A stretch of 64,000 nt of DNA from Mycobacterium sp. 050128. GTDB taxonomy: Bacteria; Actinomycetota; Actinomycetes; Mycobacteriales; Mycobacteriaceae. Below, piece by piece: positions 16,675 through 63,872 of this stretch (positions are counted from its first letter, which is position 1; each line of letters starts with the position of its first letter). The stretch covers positions 1,984,001-2,048,000 of the forward strand of contig NZ_JAZGLW010000001.1 of assembly GCF_036409155.1 (NCBI RefSeq). The letters run 5' to 3'. Under the pieces are notes generated by a model that made no database searches, had not been told where the DNA came from, and saw only the letters and a list, made by a program, of their open reading frames with translations. A program made the translations under genes and the position numbers.

Positions 16675-16704
16675 GCCACGCCGCGCGAAAGGGTCCAGAC
16701 ATGT

Positions 16705-17001
16705 AGAGCGGGCGGCGTTCCGAAATATTCGGTCCGCCGCCCGCTAGCACGGAACTCGGTTACCAAGCGTGCATGTATGGGGCTGCGTGGGTGGCCTCGG
16801 CGATCTTGCGACGCTTCGAGCTACGACCCCACCCAAAGGGCCGTTCATGCTCTCTGCATTTTCGCAATTACGCAGGCCCGCAACACTTCTGCCATTTTCG
16901 CGGCTATGACTCCGCGTGGGTGCCGAGAACCGTGCTGGGCGCCCGGTTCGGGAGAACGAACCTTCTCTTCCGGATCGACCTAGGCCTTACCGGGCTTCCG
17001 T
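16705..17001 (-). ncRNA. Ms1/MTS2823-type small RNA (6S-like, RNA polymerase core binder)
   Basis: In mycobacteria the abundant stationary-phase RNA Ms1 (MTS2823 in M. tuberculosis) lies between the Rv3661 and Rv3662c orthologs, the same gap as here, and is about 300 nt long. On the minus strand I see a -35 TTGCTG, a 17-bp spacer, -10 TACAAA and a start near 17001. The transcript ends in a strong two-part hairpin at 16707-16745, giving about 297 nt. The interval holds no convincing protein gene. Ms1 binds core RNA polymerase lacking sigma. Exact ends are inferred; the identity rests on position, length and signals. Confidence 0.75.
16707..16745 (-). terminator. GC-rich hairpin ending the Ms1-type RNA, possibly bidirectional
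   Basis: A perfect 10-bp stem AGCGGGCGGC / GCCGCCCGCT encloses a second stem CCGAA-ATA-TTCGG. There is no long T-run on either side, which is common for mycobacterial terminators. It could stop both the minus-strand small RNA and plus-strand read-through from the dpp operon, whose last gene ends 32 bases away. Confidence 0.65.
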
Positions 17002-17099: not shown

Positions 17100-17957
17100 C
17101 TAGAACGCGAAGCGCCGCAGCAGCGTGTAGGTGACCGCGCCGGCGGCCAGCGCGGTGACACTCACCGCGGCCGTGGTGGCGATCGCGGCACCCGAGGGCG
17201 CCGGAATCCGGTCTCGCAACGAGACCGGTCGCGAGAAACTCAATACGGGCCAACCACGTTCGGTCGCTTCCTTGCGCAAACCGCGGTCGGGGTTGACCAC
17301 GCTGGGATGCCCGACCGACTCGAGCATCGGCAGGTCGGTGATCGAGTCCGAGTAGGCGTAGCAGTGCTCCAGCGGGTAGCCCTCGCGGGCCGCCAGCTCG
17401 CGGATCGCTTGGACCTTGCCCTCGCCGTAGCAGTAGAACGCGACGTCGCCGGTGTACTTGCCGTCCTCGACGACCATCCGGGTCGCCATCGCGTGCGTGG
17501 CACCCAGTGCGCGGGCGATCGGTGCGACGATTTCCTCGCCCGACGCGGACACCACGACGACGTCGCGGCCGCACAATTTGTGCGCGGCGATCAGGTCCGC
17601 GGCCTCGGCGAACACCAGTGGAGTCACGATGTCGTGCAGCGTTTCGTTGACGATCGACTTGACCTGGGCGACGTCCCAGCCGGTACACATGTTGGTCATG
17701 TGAGTGCGCATTCGGTCCATCTGGTCATGATCAGCACCAGAGAGCAGGAAGATGAATTGGGCGTAGCTGGACTTCAGCACGGCGCGCCGATTGAGCAGTC
17801 CCTGATTGAAGAACGGTTTGCTGAACGCCAGGGTGCTGGACTTGGCGATGATGGTCTTATCCAGGTCGAAAAAGGCCGCGGTACGGGCGCGTGCAGTACC
17901 GGTTGCGGCTGTCTGCGCAGAGGTTTGCTGATACGCGTCTGGGTCGGAGACAGTCAC
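17100..17957 (-). CDS. HAD-IB family SerB-like phosphatase with C-terminal membrane anchor (Rv3661 family)
   Basis: A protein of about 285 residues. The HAD nucleophile motif AAFFDLDKTII places the two catalytic aspartates at about 31 and 33. Motif II lies around VVVVSASGEE, and motif III/IV around CYAYSDSITDLPMLE. This subclass (TIGR01490/SerB-like) includes phosphoserine phosphatase relatives. The last 35 residues form a hydrophobic segment ending in LLRRFAF, suggesting membrane anchoring. The GTG at 17957 (or 17963) is chosen because upstream sequence is low-complexity and lies in the promoter region. In M. tuberculosis it is simply a conserved protein; the substrate is not known. Confidence 0.85.
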   Translation of the reverse strand: MTVSDPDAYQQTSAQTAATGTARARTAAFFDLDKTIIAKSSTLAFSKPFFNQGLLNRRAVLKSSYAQFIFLLSGADHDQMDRMRTHMTNMCTGWDVAQVKSIVNETLHDIVTPLVFAEAADLIAAHKLCGRDVVVVSASGEEIVAPIARALGATHAMATRMVVEDGKYTGDVAFYCYGEGKVQAIRELAAREGYPLEHCYAYSDSITDLPMLESVGHPSVVNPDRGLRKEATERGWPVLSFSRPVSLRDRIPAPSGAAIATTAAVSVTALAAGAVTYTLLRRFAF

Positions 17958-18085
17958 CGACACAGCATAGGTCGGTGAGTCGGCGCGTCCGGGGTCGCCG
18001 GCGAAATCGGGGCTGAACTGGGGGTAACACACGAGGCCAACGGTGTTTTTACGGCTCAAATAGTAGCTATGAAAAAAAGATCTAC

Positions 18086-18116
18086 TTGCGGCACCGCCCA
18101 CTGTCGTGTGTATAGT
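18086..18116 (+). promoter_or_regulatory. Predicted promoter of the 6C/B11-type RNA
   Basis: A near-consensus -10 TATAGT at 18111-18116 is preceded by TTGCGG at 18086-18091 with a 19-bp spacer. Transcription would start at about 18123, immediately before the first stem-loop of the small RNA. Confidence 0.6.
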
Positions 18117-18122
18117 AAGCAT

Positions 18123-18219
18123 TACTCGGCCTGAGCCGAGGGTGTATCAGCCCGACCCCCCGGGGCTGATGCACGACGACCTCCGCCTCCTCCCCCCCTG
18201 GCGGGGGTCGTCCCTTTTC
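18123..18219 (+). ncRNA. 6C RNA (B11 / ncRv13660c type)
   Basis: Three consecutive hairpins are visible. The first is CTCGGC-CTGA-GCCGAG (18125-18140). The second has stem ATCAGCCC/GGGCTGAT (18146-18153 with 18163-18170) whose loop holds exactly six Cs (18156-18161). The third has stem GACGACC/GGTCGTC (18175-18181 with 18206-18212) whose loop holds seven Cs (18192-18198), followed by CCCTTTT. Two C-rich loops define the actinobacterial 6C family. In M. tuberculosis B11 sits in this same gap between Rv3660c and Rv3661. The C-rich loops pair with G-rich ribosome sites of target mRNAs such as panD and dnaB. Length (about 97 nt) matches the family. Confidence 0.92.
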
Positions 18220-18397
18220 TGGGGTAATTTTCCCCAAAAACAAGCCTTCCGACTCCGCCTTGGGTGCGTTGCGGGCACAGTGTTATCCCTCGGGCGGGCA
18301 AGCGCCGAACCCCGAACTTTGTGCACACCCTCGTATCTCTCCACAAATCCAGATCTGGCACTGGTGTGCCATCCCGAGCTGCCCGCACGGTGGTGGG

Positions 18398-19498
18398 GTG
18401 ACAATCGCGACCAGTGCCGAGCCGAGGGGTTCCGCGGGTGTACTCGCGGTGCTGACCGACCCGATATTGCGCGACGAGCTGGACCGGGTGGCCGCCGCGG
18501 TCGGCGTTCGAGTGGTGCACGCCGGCGGTGCGGCGGTGGGACGGAAAACGTGGTCGGCGGCCGCGGCGGTGGTGCTCGATGCGGCGGGCGCGGACCGTTG
18601 TCGGTGCGCTGGTCTACCGCGTCGCACGCACGTCAGCGTGTTGTGCGCCGCCGAACCCGCGACCGCCACCTGGTCGGCCGCGATCGCGGTCGGCGCGCAG
18701 CACGTGCTGAGCATGCCGGCGCAGGAGCACGAATTGATCCGCGAGCTCGCGGAGTCCGCTGAATCCGTCCGGGACGACGAGTTGCGCGGCCACGTCGTCG
18801 CGGTGGTCGGTGGCCGCGGCGGGGGCGGCGCGTCGTTGTTCGCGGCCGCACTGGCGCGGGCCGCCAATGATGCACTGCTAGTTGATCTTGATCCCTGGGG
18901 CGGCGGCCTCGATTTGTTGCTGGGCGGTGAGAGCACACCCGGCCTGCGGTGGCCCGACTTGGCATTGCAGGGCGGGCGGCTCAGCTGGCCGGCCGTGCGC
19001 GACGCCCTGCCGCGCCCGCACGGCATCAGCTTGCTGTCCGGCACGCGGCGTGGCTACGAACTGGACGCCGGGCCGGTGGACGCGGTCATCGATGCGGGCC
19101 GCCGCGGAGGCGTCACGGTGGTGTGCGATCTGCCCCGTCGTGTGACCGACGCCACCCGGGCCGCGCTCGACGCCGCCGACCTTGTCGTCGTCGTCAGCCC
19201 GTGCGACGTGCGGTCCTGCGCGGCGACGGCAGCGATGACGCCGGTGCTGGCCGCGATCAATCCCAATCTCGGGTTGGTGGTCCGTGGCCCGTCGCCGGGT
19301 GGACTGCGTGCGGCCGAAGTCGCCGACATCTGCGGCCTGCCGCTGCTCGCGACGATGAAAGCTCAGCCGCAACTGGCCGACCAACTCGAACACGGCGGTC
19401 TGCGTTTGGGGCGGCGATCGGCCCTGACGGCGGCAGCTCGCCGGGTGCTCGCGGTACTGCCGCGCGCGGGATCCCGACCGAAAGCCGGTGCGGCGTGA
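18398..19498 (+). CDS. ssd: Septum-site-determining/CpaE-TadZ-like protein Ssd
   Basis: A protein of about 366 residues of the ParA/MinD superfamily in the TadZ/CpaE branch (helicase/secretion neighbourhood CpaE-like). An N-terminal receiver-like segment (GVLAVLTDPILRDELDRVAAAVG) is followed by a deviant Walker A region GGRGGGGASLFAAALA and a DLDPWGGGLDLLLGG motif. The Walker A lacks the usual GKT, so ATP use may be impaired. In M. tuberculosis Ssd (Rv3660c) affects septum formation and dormancy programmes. The GTG at 18398 is chosen since the ORF upstream of it overlaps the intergenic region. It is coupled by GTGA to the secretion ATPase. Confidence 0.87.
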   Translation: MTIATSAEPRGSAGVLAVLTDPILRDELDRVAAAVGVRVVHAGGAAVGRKTWSAAAAVVLDAAGADRCRCAGLPRRTHVSVLCAAEPATATWSAAIAVGAQHVLSMPAQEHELIRELAESAESVRDDELRGHVVAVVGGRGGGGASLFAAALARAANDALLVDLDPWGGGLDLLLGGESTPGLRWPDLALQGGRLSWPAVRDALPRPHGISLLSGTRRGYELDAGPVDAVIDAGRRGGVTVVCDLPRRVTDATRAALDAADLVVVVSPCDVRSCAATAAMTPVLAAINPNLGLVVRGPSPGGLRAAEVADICGLPLLATMKAQPQLADQLEHGGLRLGRRSALTAAARRVLAVLPRAGSRPKAGAA

Positions 19499-20658
19499 GC
19501 GAATCGCTTATCGAGCGGGTGCGCGAGCGTTTGGCGACCGAAGCGGCGCCATTGCGGCCCAACGTGGTGGCCGCCGCGATCCGGGCCGAATCCGGCGGGA
19601 TGCTCGGTGATACCGAGGTCCTGGCCAACCTCCGGTTGCTGCAGACCGAACTGACCGGCGCCGGGATTCTCGACGCATTGCTGTGTGCGGACGGCACCAC
19701 CGACGTCCTGGTCACCGCGCCGGACGCGGTGTGGGTCGACGATGGAAACGGTTTGCGTCGCAGCCAAATCCGGTTTGCCGACGAGGCGGCGGTGCGGCGG
19801 CTGGCGCAGCGGCTGGCGTTGGCCGCCGGGCGCCGTCTCGACGACGCACAGCCGTGGGTCGACGGTCAACTGAGCGGTATCGGCGCCGGCGGATTTGCGG
19901 TCCGGTTGCACGCGGTGTTGCCACCGGTGGCTGCCGGTGGCACGTGCTTGTCGCTGCGGGTGTTGCGGCCGGCTACCCAGGATCTGGCGGCGCTGACCGC
20001 GTCGGGCGCGATCGAGCCGGCGGCTGCGGAGTTGGTGGCCGACATCATCGCGGCCCGGTTGGCATTCCTGGTGTGTGGCGGCACCGGCGCCGGCAAGACG
20101 ACTTTGCTGGCGGCCATGCTGGGTGCGGTGTCGCCGGCCGAGCGGATCGTGTGCGTCGAGGACGCGGCCGAATTGGCGCCCCGGCATCCGCATCTGGTCA
20201 AGCTGGTCGCGCGGTGCGCCAATGTCGAAGGCGTAGGCGAGGTTCCGCTGCGCCAACTCGTGCGGCAGGCGCTGCGGATGCGGCCCGACCGCATAGTGGT
20301 CGGAGAGGTCAGGGGCGCCGAAGTGGTCGACCTGCTCGCGGCGCTGAACACCGGCCACGATGGCGGGGCCGGCACGGTGCATGCCAACAATCCGGGCGAG
20401 GTCCCGGCCCGGCTGGAGGCGCTGGGCGCGCTCGGCGGTTTGGACCGGGTCGCGTTGCACAGTCAGCTCGCGGCGGCGGTCCAGGTACTGCTGCACGTCG
20501 CCCGGGATCGCAGCGGCCGGCGTCGGCTCGCTGAGATCGCGGTGCTGCGCCACGTCGAGGGACGGGTTCGGGTGGTCACGGCGTGGCATGCGGAGCGAGG
20601 GATGACCGATCATGCCGACGAACTGCATTTCTTGCTGCGAAGCCGGTTGCCGGCATGA
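19495..20658 (+). CDS. tadA: Secretion ATPase of the Tad/CpaF family
   Basis: A 387-residue VirB11/CpaF-type traffic ATPase. An N-terminal domain with ELTGAGILDALLCADGTTDVLV precedes the ATPase core: Walker A GGTGAGKTT (about 196-204), the Asp box CVEDAAEL, Walker B MRPDRIVVGEVRG and the His box NTGHDGGAGTVHAN. All motor motifs are present. It should power assembly of the Flp-type pilus with the two downstream TadB/TadC-like membrane proteins. The start is the GTG overlapping the ssd stop; its own stop overlaps tadB as ATGA. Confidence 0.92.
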   Translation: MSESLIERVRERLATEAAPLRPNVVAAAIRAESGGMLGDTEVLANLRLLQTELTGAGILDALLCADGTTDVLVTAPDAVWVDDGNGLRRSQIRFADEAAVRRLAQRLALAAGRRLDDAQPWVDGQLSGIGAGGFAVRLHAVLPPVAAGGTCLSLRVLRPATQDLAALTASGAIEPAAAELVADIIAARLAFLVCGGTGAGKTTLLAAMLGAVSPAERIVCVEDAAELAPRHPHLVKLVARCANVEGVGEVPLRQLVRQALRMRPDRIVVGEVRGAEVVDLLAALNTGHDGGAGTVHANNPGEVPARLEALGALGGLDRVALHSQLAAAVQVLLHVARDRSGRRRLAEIAVLRHVEGRVRVVTAWHAERGMTDHADELHFLLRSRLPA

Positions 20659-34118: not shown

Positions 34119-34273
34119 CAACCCACCGTATCGGTCAGCAGGGACTACCCGGTAACCCTTAATCGCTTCGGCAAGTCGCCGGGTCCTGGCGAAATGCCGG
34201 AAAAGATCACGGAACTATCGCGATACGGTAGCCGGGGGGTGGACGTCGTTCTATCTCACTAATGTTGCCGGTG

Positions 34274-35482
34274 ATGTCCGGAGTGTTTACGCGGCTGGTA
34301 GGCCAAGACGCGGTTGAGGCCGCGCTGCTCGGCGCTGCGAGGGCCGCCCGAAGTGATCCCGATCACAGCGATGGGGACCACGGGACTATGACACATGCGT
34401 GGCTGATCACCGGCCCGCCGGGGTCGGGGCGTTCGGTTGCCGCGTTGTGCTTCGCGGCCGCGCTGCAATGCACGTCCGACGGCGAGCCCGGCTGCGGGCA
34501 GTGCCGGGCCTGCACGACGACGATGGCCGGCACCCACGCCGACGTTCGCCGGGTGATCCCCGAAGGCCTCTCCATCGGCGTCGACGAGATGCGTGCGATC
34601 GTGCAGACCGCGTCGCGGCGCCCGACGACCGGGCACTGGCAGATCGTGGTGGTCGAGGACGCCGATCGGCTGACCGAGGGTGCCGGCAACGCGCTGTTGA
34701 AGGTGGTCGAGGAACCGCCGCCGTCGACGGTGTTCCTGTTGTGCGCGCCGTCGGTCGATCCCGAAGACATCGCGGTCACGCTGCGGTCGAGATGCCGGCA
34801 CGTCGCTCTGGTGACGCCCTCGACCGAGTCGATCGCGCAGGTGCTGATCGACAGCGACGGCCTGAGCGCCGACACGGCGAACTGGGCGGCGTCAGTCAGC
34901 GGCGGCCACGTGGGGCGGGCGCGCCGGTTGGCGACCGACTCGGAGGCACGGGAGCGGAGGGAGCGGGCGTTGGCATTGGTGCGCGATGCGGCGACCCCGG
35001 CGCGCGCCTACGCCGCCGCCGAAGAGTTGGTGGCCGCGGCCGAAACCGAGGCCGTCGTATTGACCGCTGACCGCGCCGAGGCCGAGACCGAGGAGCTGCG
35101 GACGGCGCTGGGGGCCGGGGGCACCGGTAAAGGCACCGCCGGGGCCATGCGCGGCGCCGCGGGCGCGATCAAGGATCTCGAGCGTCGGCAGAAGTCCCGC
35201 CAGACCAGGGCCTCGCGCGATGCGCTGGACCGAGCGCTGATCGACCTGGCCACCTACTTCCGTGACGCGCTGGTGGTCTCGGCCCGCGCGGGTGGGGTGC
35301 GGGCCAACCATCCCGACATGGCCGAGCGGGTGGCGGCGCTGGCCGCGCATGCCGCACCCGATCGGCTGTTGCGCTGCATCGAGGCGGTGCTTGCGTGCCG
35401 CGAAGCGCTGGCGGTCAACGTCAAACCCAAGTTCGCCGTCGACGCGATGGTGGCCACCATCGGTCAGGAACTGCGGGACTGA
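34274..35482 (+). CDS. holB: DNA polymerase III delta' subunit
   Basis: A clamp-loader AAA+ subunit of about 402 residues. It starts at MSGVFTRLVGQD and has a P-loop variant GPPGSGRS, a four-cysteine zinc module (GCGQCRACTTT with an upstream Cys), the VVVEDADRLTEGAGNALLK region and the SRC arginine motif (RSRC). A long alpha-helical tail follows. Upstream in-frame starts at 34262 and 34271 exist; 34274 gives the family length. The P-loop Arg in place of Lys agrees with delta' being a poor ATPase. The tRNA-Thr gene follows. Confidence 0.94.
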   Translation: MSGVFTRLVGQDAVEAALLGAARAARSDPDHSDGDHGTMTHAWLITGPPGSGRSVAALCFAAALQCTSDGEPGCGQCRACTTTMAGTHADVRRVIPEGLSIGVDEMRAIVQTASRRPTTGHWQIVVVEDADRLTEGAGNALLKVVEEPPPSTVFLLCAPSVDPEDIAVTLRSRCRHVALVTPSTESIAQVLIDSDGLSADTANWAASVSGGHVGRARRLATDSEARERRERALALVRDAATPARAYAAAEELVAAAETEAVVLTADRAEAETEELRTALGAGGTGKGTAGAMRGAAGAIKDLERRQKSRQTRASRDALDRALIDLATYFRDALVVSARAGGVRANHPDMAERVAALAAHAAPDRLLRCIEAVLACREALAVNVKPKFAVDAMVATIGQELRD

Positions 35483-35547: not shown

Positions 35548-35623
35548 GCCGCCTTAGCTCAGTCGGTAGAGCGATTCACTCGTAATGAATAGGTCGGGGG
35601 TTCGATTCCCCCAGGCGGCTCCA
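35548..35623 (+). tRNA. tRNA-Thr (anticodon CGT)
   Basis: A full cloverleaf: acceptor GCCGCCT/AGGCGGC, D-arm with TAGCTCAGTCGGTAGAGC, anticodon stem ATTCA/TGAAT around loop CTCGTAA (anticodon CGT, reading ACG), and T-arm GGGGGTTCGATTCCCCC. CCA is encoded at 35621-35623. Confidence 0.97.
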
Positions 35624-62482: not shown

Positions 62483-63417
62483 ACGCGATGACGGTCCGGC
62501 CACCGGCTTTCAAACCGGGCGAACTCAACGTCTACTCGTCGCCGCGCGAGGTGTCGGACGTCAGCCGCGCGCTGCGCCACACCGGCCGCCGGGTGATGCT
62601 GGTGCCGACGATGGGCGCACTGCACGACGGGCATCTTGCCCTGGTGCGCGCCGCCAAACGCGTGCCCGGTTCGGTGGTGGTGGTTTCGATCTTCGTGAAT
62701 CCGTTGCAGTTTGGTGCCGGGGAAGACCTCGACGCCTACCCGCGCACGCTCGACGCCGACCTGGCGCTGCTGCGCGGCCAAGGTGTCGAGATCGTGTTCG
62801 CCCCGACCGCCGCGGCGATGTATCCCGACGGCATGCGCACCACCGTGGCGCCCGGGCCGTTGGCCGGTGAACTCGAAGGTGCTTCGCGGCCAACGCATTT
62901 CGCGGGGATGCTGACAGTGGTGTGCAAGCTGCTTCAGATCGTGCACCCGGACCGTGCGTTCTTCGGCGAGAAGGATTACCAGCAATTGGTGCTGATCCGA
63001 CAGATGGTTGCCGACTTGAACGTCGACGTGCAGATCGTCGGTGTGCCGATCGTCCGGGAATCCGACGGGCTGGCGATGTCGTCGCGCAATCGCTACCTCG
63101 ATACCGAGCAGCGCGAACTGGCCGTGGCGCTTTCGGCGGCGCTGACGGCCGGGGCGCACGCGGCGATACATGGTGTCCAGGCTGCGCTGGACGCGGCCCG
63201 CGCGGTGCTCGACGCCACACCCGGCGTCGTGCTCGACTACCTGGTTTTGCGCAGCACCGAGCTGGGGCCGGATCCCGTCGATGGAGCCGGCCGGCTGCTG
63301 GTCGCCGCCCGGCTCGGCACCACGAGACTGCTGGACAATGTCGCAATCCAAATCGGTAATCTCGCCGGCACCTCTGGGGGGCCGGACGGGCATGTTGAAT
63401 CACCTTGGAGGAACTGA
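62479..63417 (+). CDS. panC: Pantothenate synthetase
   Basis: A 312-residue enzyme that joins pantoate and beta-alanine. The HIGH-like site is [10 protein letters not shown] (H49, H52), and the KMSKS-like loop is [17 protein letters not shown] and the GMLTVVCKL segment are conserved. Its stop overlaps the panD start as TGATG. It is an established drug target. Confidence 0.96.
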
Positions 63418-63872
63418 TGTTTCGCACGATGCTGAAATCGAAGATCCACCGTGCCACCGTCACGCAGGCTGATCTGCACTACGTCGGCTCGGTGACGATC
63501 GACGCCGACCTGATGGACGCGGCCGACCTGCTCGAGGGAGAGCAGGTGACCATCGTCGACATCGACAACGGCGCCCGCCTCGTCACCTACGCGATCACCG
63601 GCGAGCGTGGCACCGGCGTCATCGGAATCAATGGTGCAGCAGCACATCTCGTGCACCCCGGCGACCTGGTGATCCTTATCGCCTACGGCACGATGGAAGA
63701 CGCCGAGGCACGCGCCTACCAGCCGCGCATCGTCTTCGTCGACGCCGACAACAAGCAGATCGACCTGGGTAGCGATCCGGCATTCGTGCCCGACTTCGAA
63801 ATACTCGGAGCGGCCGAATTGCTCCCCGCCCGCGGGCGGTACCCCCACAATCCCCGGATCGGCGCGCGATAG
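63417..63872 (+). CDS. panD: Aspartate 1-decarboxylase precursor
   Basis: A pyruvoyl enzyme making beta-alanine. The proenzyme is 151 residues; self-cleavage occurs at G24-S25 in YVGSVTID. The C-terminal tail is about 12 residues longer than the M. tuberculosis protein as I recall it, and it lies in the region where pyrazinamide-resistance changes map. A strong GGAGGA ribosome site before the ATG is a good match for the C-rich loops of the 6C RNA at 18.1 kb. Confidence 0.96.

Follow-up and report, generated by a model that had tools for sequence, protein, structure and literature searches.

Results

A 6C/B11 small RNA lies between an HAD-IB hydrolase gene and ssd

We analyzed a 64,000-nt window (the whole stretch of DNA under study) from Mycobacterium sp. 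050128, whose assembly comprises 6.73 Mb in 52 contigs. Between a minus-strand HAD-IB hydrolase gene and ssd, the first gene of a Tad block on the plus strand, the window carries a small structured RNA. The features of this locus are as follows.

17100–17990 (−): HAD-IB hydrolase gene, divergent neighbor (PF12710, TIGR01490)
18086–18091 (+): −35-like TTGCGG, 19 nt 5′ of the −10 box, read from the sequence; three of six bases as in TTGACA
18111–18116 (+): −10 box TATAGT within TGTGTATAGT, read from the sequence; conserved in genus copies
18122–18214 (+): 6C/B11 RNA, probable 93-nt transcript, ends to within a few nt; the U-tail may partly belong to it
18125–18140 (+): hairpin 1, six pairs, 5′ of the Rfam core (fold; both-side changes in five of six pairs)
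18141–18216 (+): Rfam 6C core (RF01066 match)
18142–18174 (+): second hairpin, loop GACCCCCCG (fold)
18154–18162 (+): C-rich loop 1, GACCCCCCG (fold; GACCCCCCGG in 39/39 genus copies read)
18175–18212 (+): third hairpin, loop UCCUCCCCCCCU (fold)
18188–18199 (+): C-rich loop 2, UCCUCCCCCCCU, with UCCUCC at 18188–18193 complementary to GGAGGA (fold)
18175–18219 (+): intrinsic terminator, hairpin 3 plus U-tail; a 13-bp stem, then CCUUUUC
18220–18236 (+): small second hairpin UGGGGUAAUUUUCCCCA 3′ of the terminator (fold; alike in some relatives only)
18398–19498 (+): ssd, septum site-determining protein Ssd, start codon uncertain; first Tad-block gene (TIGR03815, 375 bits)
19495–20658 (+): tadA-family ATPase gene (TIGR03819, 513 bits)

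The Rfam 6C model (RF01066) matches 18141–18216 on the plus strand with 90.7 bits (E = 8e-11), against a gathering score of 47. The alignment spans model positions 1–75 of 75 and marks no non-standard pairs, and loop 2 has one inserted base relative to the model. When folded, 18122–18217 (+) forms three hairpins at −61.1 kcal/mol (z = −7.68), and none of 200 shuffles was equally stable. This copy matches RF01066 over the full length of the model, with both C-loops in the same order and at the same spacing, but carries an extra 5′ hairpin outside the Rfam match. The C runs of the two loops are a C6 at 18156–18161 and a C7 at 18192–18198. A first-pass annotation of this DNA, made from the sequence letters, had assigned the region to the 6C/B11 family by strand, length and position, had described loops of six and seven cytosines preceded by an additional hairpin, and had named the Rfam 6C model as a check. 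The model score, the three-hairpin fold with hairpin 1 at 18125–18140, and the conserved neighbors described below bear it out on each of these points.

We aligned 49 genus and family copies, picked among 66 candidates, and found that 13 of the 31 stem pairs are altered on both sides, a number equaled by none of 500 shuffles. Pairing is kept in 96.1% of the cells of this alignment, and slid controls gave one to five both-side-changed pairs, a comparison in which the tested structure is favored, as it derives from the window's own fold. Stems that change while their loops are kept make the pattern expected of an RNA that acts through its loops. With a model score above 47 bits, two adjacent C6-type hairpins, and compensatory stems with conserved loops, the region at 18141–18216 is the chromosomal 6C/B11 small RNA, a known RNA in a known place and nothing novel in kind.

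The RNA keeps its genomic neighbors across the family

We found 6C in 57 of 60 genomes sampled from the genus. The three Mycobacterium genomes without it also have no close HAD orthologue (best matches, 34–36% identity), and the misses may therefore reflect assembly gaps. At the level of the family, 83 of 101 genomes have 6C, and with strict filters 129 of 246 genomes of the class do, 99 of them over the cut-off. Among 39 genus loci, the HAD gene is upstream and divergent of 6C in 38 and ssd is downstream in 37; the two loci missing ssd (L008 and L021) are at contig ends, L021 keeping ~840 nt 3′ of 6C. Both genes accompany 6C in all 27 loci from other genera of the family, with ssd ~1.2 kb off in L123 and L126. 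Ten loci were read outside the family, where HAD is present in six, ssd in eight, and at least one of the two in all ten. In a distant locus, L128 (f14 genome), the orientation of 6C to HAD and ssd is reversed, which is not so in the other loci that have at least one of these neighbors.

We take the HAD-IB and ssd genes to be the orthologues of Rv3661 and Rv3660c, respectively, and the RNA here sits between them. B11 of M. tuberculosis, M. marinum and M. abscessus occupies the same place, and the neighborhood is common to the 6C copies of the other actinobacteria sampled.

Second, weaker 6C matches occur in four genomes (G056, G025, G162 and G316), each with HAD and ssd absent within 5–6 kb, and only the G056 copy passes the Rfam cut-off. 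This copy (L337, 2928–3004, on a 191-kb contig) scores 49.3 bits and has loop-2 surroundings UCCUCCCACCUUU, with no long C-run. Extra 6C copies have already been described (PMC9569102). We considered using genomes without a 6C match as natural knock-outs and set the idea aside, as a laxer search of 21 of them gave matches in 10 at E ≤ 1, none over the cut-off. Two of the five best weak matches adjoin HAD and ssd, and a short match next to HAD was seen in another genome. In G327 (genus g106), a pair of C-loop hairpins separates HAD from ssd (L318, ~1501) at a score below the cut-off; this element is probably a 6C so diverged that the Rfam model underrates it. Carriage of this 6C by a phage or plasmid was also rejected: there was no phage match, and the sole plasmid match was a Nocardia record of 2.66 Mb.

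A second conserved small RNA, Ms1 (RF02566, 242.5 bits), is found one gene from 6C at 16700–17001 (−), such that Ms1 and 6C bracket the HAD-IB gene. Their linkage is already in print (PMC9569102). Ms1, which is unrelated to 6C, is described in the literature as resembling 6S RNA and binding core RNA polymerase.

A −10 box and terminator belonging to the RNA are conserved

All 39 Mycobacterium 6C copies read have TATAGT, preceded by TTGC at a distance of ~25 nt, and TATAGT equals the published −10 box of B11 (PMC12395582). The promoter, which had been called good in the first-pass annotation, stands as this conserved −10 box; it is weaker than that by generic consensus, and a generic promoter scan found no sigma-70-like site at 6C. 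From the −10 box, the published length of 93 nt and the published C71–C77 numbering, we infer that the RNA runs from ~18122 to ~18214. The terminator stem is paired in 100% of cells across the 49 sequences. The three hairpins (two of them C-rich), the TATAGT −10 box and a fitting 93-nt length are shared with B11 of M. tuberculosis, M. marinum and M. abscessus. The small hairpin 3′ of the terminator (18220–18236) is a G4/C4 hairpin with T and A runs on its flanks; similar ones are seen in L010 and L014, and it is not general.

Given its position, 6C might instead work in cis, through read-through or attenuation, by serving an ssd-tad transcript as leader or terminator. Cis-reg is the type that Rfam gives to 6C. 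As given above, 6C and ssd lie side by side on the same strand in the genus (37 of 39 loci) and in the other genera of the family (27 of 27), and ssd is near 6C in eight of ten loci outside the family. However, the RNA has a −10 box and terminator of its own, both conserved, and its orientation to HAD and ssd is reversed in L128. Moreover, the published action is on unlinked genes (PMC10470900 and PMC12395582), and the weak or extra copies without HAD or ssd within 5–6 kb in four genomes, like the extra copies in print, speak against a role tied to ssd. The ssd leader, whose start is uncertain, has a pairing energy of −13.0 (rank 23), and 22 of 321 sampled starts pair better with the loops. 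These starts come from the window plus 19 sampled 20-kb stretches, with a crude caller that takes the 5′-most ATG or GTG, and some frames are not genes, so ranks among them, here and below, are approximate. The first-pass annotation had the RNA transcribed into the ssd-tad leader, acting on the Tad block in cis or by read-through. As 6C ends in its own terminator, such transcription is supposition and is not seen in the sequence. Cis action on Tad is an argument from position that we find unsupported, and we regard it as very improbable.

The C-loops are conserved and very probably act in trans

Among the copies read, UCCUCC and the C-run of loop 2 are present in 39 of 39 from the genus (C7 in 38, C8 in one), a selection that favors high scorers. 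UCCUCC is also found in 30 of 47 copies from other genera of the family (47 read of 77), and in none of 10 from outside the family (the best-scoring of 109), which differ in this from loop 2 here. The two C-loop hairpins are common to the copy here, Corynebacterium 6C (cgb_03605) and other actinobacteria, whereas C. glutamicum 6C has eight-C stretches, unlike the C6 and C7 here.

Among mycobacterial small RNAs, 6C (B11) has been described as the most widely studied (PMC12395582), and the published work describes how it acts in relatives. In M. abscessus, either loop represses the eccB4 leader by direct pairing, compensatory changes restore the effect, and complements of at least 6 nt are enriched before the starts of up-regulated genes (PMC10470900). 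In M. marinum, the terminator loop of B11 (loop 3) pairs with pks5 at G-41G-40, as backed by compensatory changes, and altering the other C-loop was without effect on the targets tested (PMC12395582). In this respect M. marinum is unlike M. abscessus, in which either loop was sufficient. In M. smegmatis, 6C interacts with panD and dnaB according to a review, whose figure legend gives the effect on both as positive, not repressive; the same review reports a chaperone screen that found none and leaves the question open (PMC8628891). Direct targets differ between species in published screens, and why the loops are kept while known targets differ is an open question in print (PMC12395582).

By analogy with these relatives, 6C in this species would be transcribed from its own TATAGT promoter as an RNA of ~93 nt that ends at its own terminator, and would act in trans. 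Its two unpaired C-loops would pair, apparently without a chaperone, with G-rich stretches at or just before ribosome sites; the paired targets would be scattered mRNAs, whose translation would mostly be blocked. We hold it very probable that the chromosomal 6C/B11 described here, with its own promoter and terminator, is such a trans-acting C-loop repressor of scattered mRNAs, with panD as a plausible target. Expression, action in trans and repression in this species are carried over in this model from the work on relatives.

The M. marinum authors have proposed another reason for the conservation of the loops (PMC12395582), namely that they are kept for a protein partner or some other core role, with mRNA pairing being lineage-specific. 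In keeping with this proposal, all 39 genus copies read have the loops while published direct targets vary by species, and no strong target site recurred in 21 genomes. Specifically, a pattern search for a near-full loop-2 complement next to a start, GGGGGGAGGA-N3-9-RTG, had no match in this genome. Over 21 genomes of the genus it gave 15 rows, or 13 sites, which fell in 10 of them; the reversed control gave three matches, and none of the sites recurred between the 21 genomes among frames of at least 40 aa. Yet this pattern detects only long complements adjoining start codons, two pairings are backed by compensatory changes (PMC10470900, PMC12395582), and the M. smegmatis screen found no chaperone (PMC8628891). 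We consider a protein partner or core role of this kind unlikely. Somewhat less likely still is that UCCUCC, a near-copy of the anti-Shine-Dalgarno core, lets 6C compete weakly at many ribosome sites in a global role of low specificity. If so, the loops would be kept for no fixed target, and panD in Mycobacterium would be among the strongest such sites.

A 6-nt complement to the loops lies in the 25 nt before 14 of the 321 sampled starts. Two control windows gave 7 and 8, and mononucleotide shuffles averaged 21.7 (sd 4.3), a mixed picture as to whether such complements are avoided before starts. Pairing energies with 6C and with the anti-Shine-Dalgarno correlate across starts (r = 0.71), so a 6C target and a strong ribosome site cannot be told apart by sequence alone.

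panD carries two candidate sites for loop 2

The features at panD that bear on pairing by 6C are as follows.

63376–63381 (+): G6 run, −41 to −36 relative to the panD start, within the end of panC (duplex with loop 2, −18.1 kcal/mol)
63407–63412 (+): panD ribosome site GGAGGA, ATG at 63417, read from the sequence
63417–63872 (+): panD, aspartate 1-decarboxylase, overlapping the panC stop as TGATG (TIGR00223, PF02261)

The perfect GGAGGA ribosome site noted for panD in the first-pass annotation is there, and this loop-complementary site is conserved among close relatives, being kept in 78 of 81 panD leaders (the window plus 80 others). The 80 are the best of 535 panD loci by similarity and include Mycolicibacterium, Mycolicibacter, Mycolicibacillus and other Mycobacteriaceae records; by PanD protein, the nearest named records among the matches listed are Mycobacterium montefiorense (94%) and M. 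triplex (93%), from which we take the source to be a non-tuberculous Mycobacterium. In 14 other genes around panD, GGAGGA is found in at most 13 of 32 leaders (folE). For this control, one of 16 frames (orf72061) was dropped for want of a conserved start, and orthologues with unmappable starts were left out. Of 50 crudely predicted starts within the window, only that of panD has a loop complement of 6 nt among the 25 nt before it.

GGAGGA doubles as a simple Shine-Dalgarno site at the panC stop, and its conservation therefore cannot separate 6C from the ribosome. Indeed, the site may be kept only as a strong Shine-Dalgarno sequence for panC–panD coupling, with no regulation by 6C here, a substantial possibility that we nonetheless lean away from. 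The TGATG overlap of panC and panD is present in 77 of 80 relatives, other family genera have GGAGGA at panD only where the sampled loops are without UCCUCC or no 6C was found, and the correlation of 6C and anti-Shine-Dalgarno energies (r = 0.71) is likewise consistent with a site made for the ribosome. Against this, the base that follows GGAGG is A in 78 of 78 panD leaders having GGAGG, which fits the 6C loop; the 16S tail is not known to match this A. That 6C binds panD is also stated in a review (PMC8628891).

GGAGGA has a pairing energy of −12.0, which ranks it 32–33 of 321 sampled starts, whereas the G6, overlooked in the first-pass annotation, raises panD to rank 3 of 321 by duplex energy over −60 to +6. 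This G6 is common to one of 80 relatives (M. ahvazicum, L037), with a G5 in one more (M. montefiorense, L033). In this genome it would be the panD site that pairs most strongly with loop 2, a feature at the level of the species. GGAGGA would pair through UCCUCC, and by our inferred mapping of positions this overlaps only C71–C72 of the C71–C77 stretch tested in M. marinum. At both sites, most bases are predicted to be paired in the mRNA. The G6, at −41 to −36, is at the same distance as the published pks5 site.

The proposal of panD as a target thus stands in part: its GGAGGA is widely kept and is the sole 6-nt complement before a window start, but it is also an ordinary Shine-Dalgarno site of unremarkable pairing energy that does not co-occur with the matching loop across genera (below). 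Taken together, GGAGGA and the species-level G6 make panD a plausible 6C target in this genome.

The panD site and the matching loop do not co-occur in other genera

Outside Mycobacterium, the other family genera have GGAGGA in 9 of 70 panD leaders, and 11 of the 70 hold some 6-nt complement to the window's loops; outside the family, GGAGGA is present in 1 of 20. The leaders read were 70 of 89 for other family genera (one per genome) and 20 of 139 outside the family. Among 17 other family genera with a UCCUCC loop, none (0/17) has GGAGGA in the panD leaders read, nor any other 6-nt loop complement there, whereas among eight without UCCUCC, four have GGAGGA. This table leaves out g106, g107, g109, g128 and g129, which do not have both a loop and a panD leader. 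In g129, in which no 6C was found, panD GGAGGA is present in three of five leaders. G043, a Mycobacterium genome with no 6C found, has GGAGAA at panD, as do 3 of 80 other relatives.

As the genera are non-independent and contribute one to five leaders each, we read these counts only as no sign of co-evolution between loop and site outside Mycobacterium. That the UCCUCC loop and the panD GGAGGA were never seen in the same other family genus argues against panD being the ancestral job of 6C, and neither panD site explains why 6C is conserved. The panD pattern and the lack of a recurring long complement (one search in 21 genomes) argue against a single conserved strong target at a start codon, and the comparison points to many weak targets or to a role other than pairing. 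Among the matches listed in a search of open-licence literature (titles and starts of abstracts), no paper dealt with the co-occurrence of the panD site and the 6C loop. This comparative result is a modest addition, mainly negative; a site kept in Mycobacterium and missing in most other family genera sampled narrows the open question about the 6C loops.

Other predicted sites

Of the remaining starts, rank 1 for −60 to +6 went to a ‘start’ of the HAD frame at 18122, which we discarded because this ORF-caller start overlaps 6C itself on the opposite strand. At dnaB, GGGAGG is found 10–15 nt before a GTG that is one of two candidate starts. The leader of holB (34262–35482; DNA polymerase III delta′) has a G6 and the best duplex of the 321 starts for −30 to +6 (−19.3); it was rejected as a better target, as none of 20 relatives keeps the G6 and one of the 20 has a G5. 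Downstream of holB is a tRNA-Thr (CGT) gene at 35548–35623 (+).
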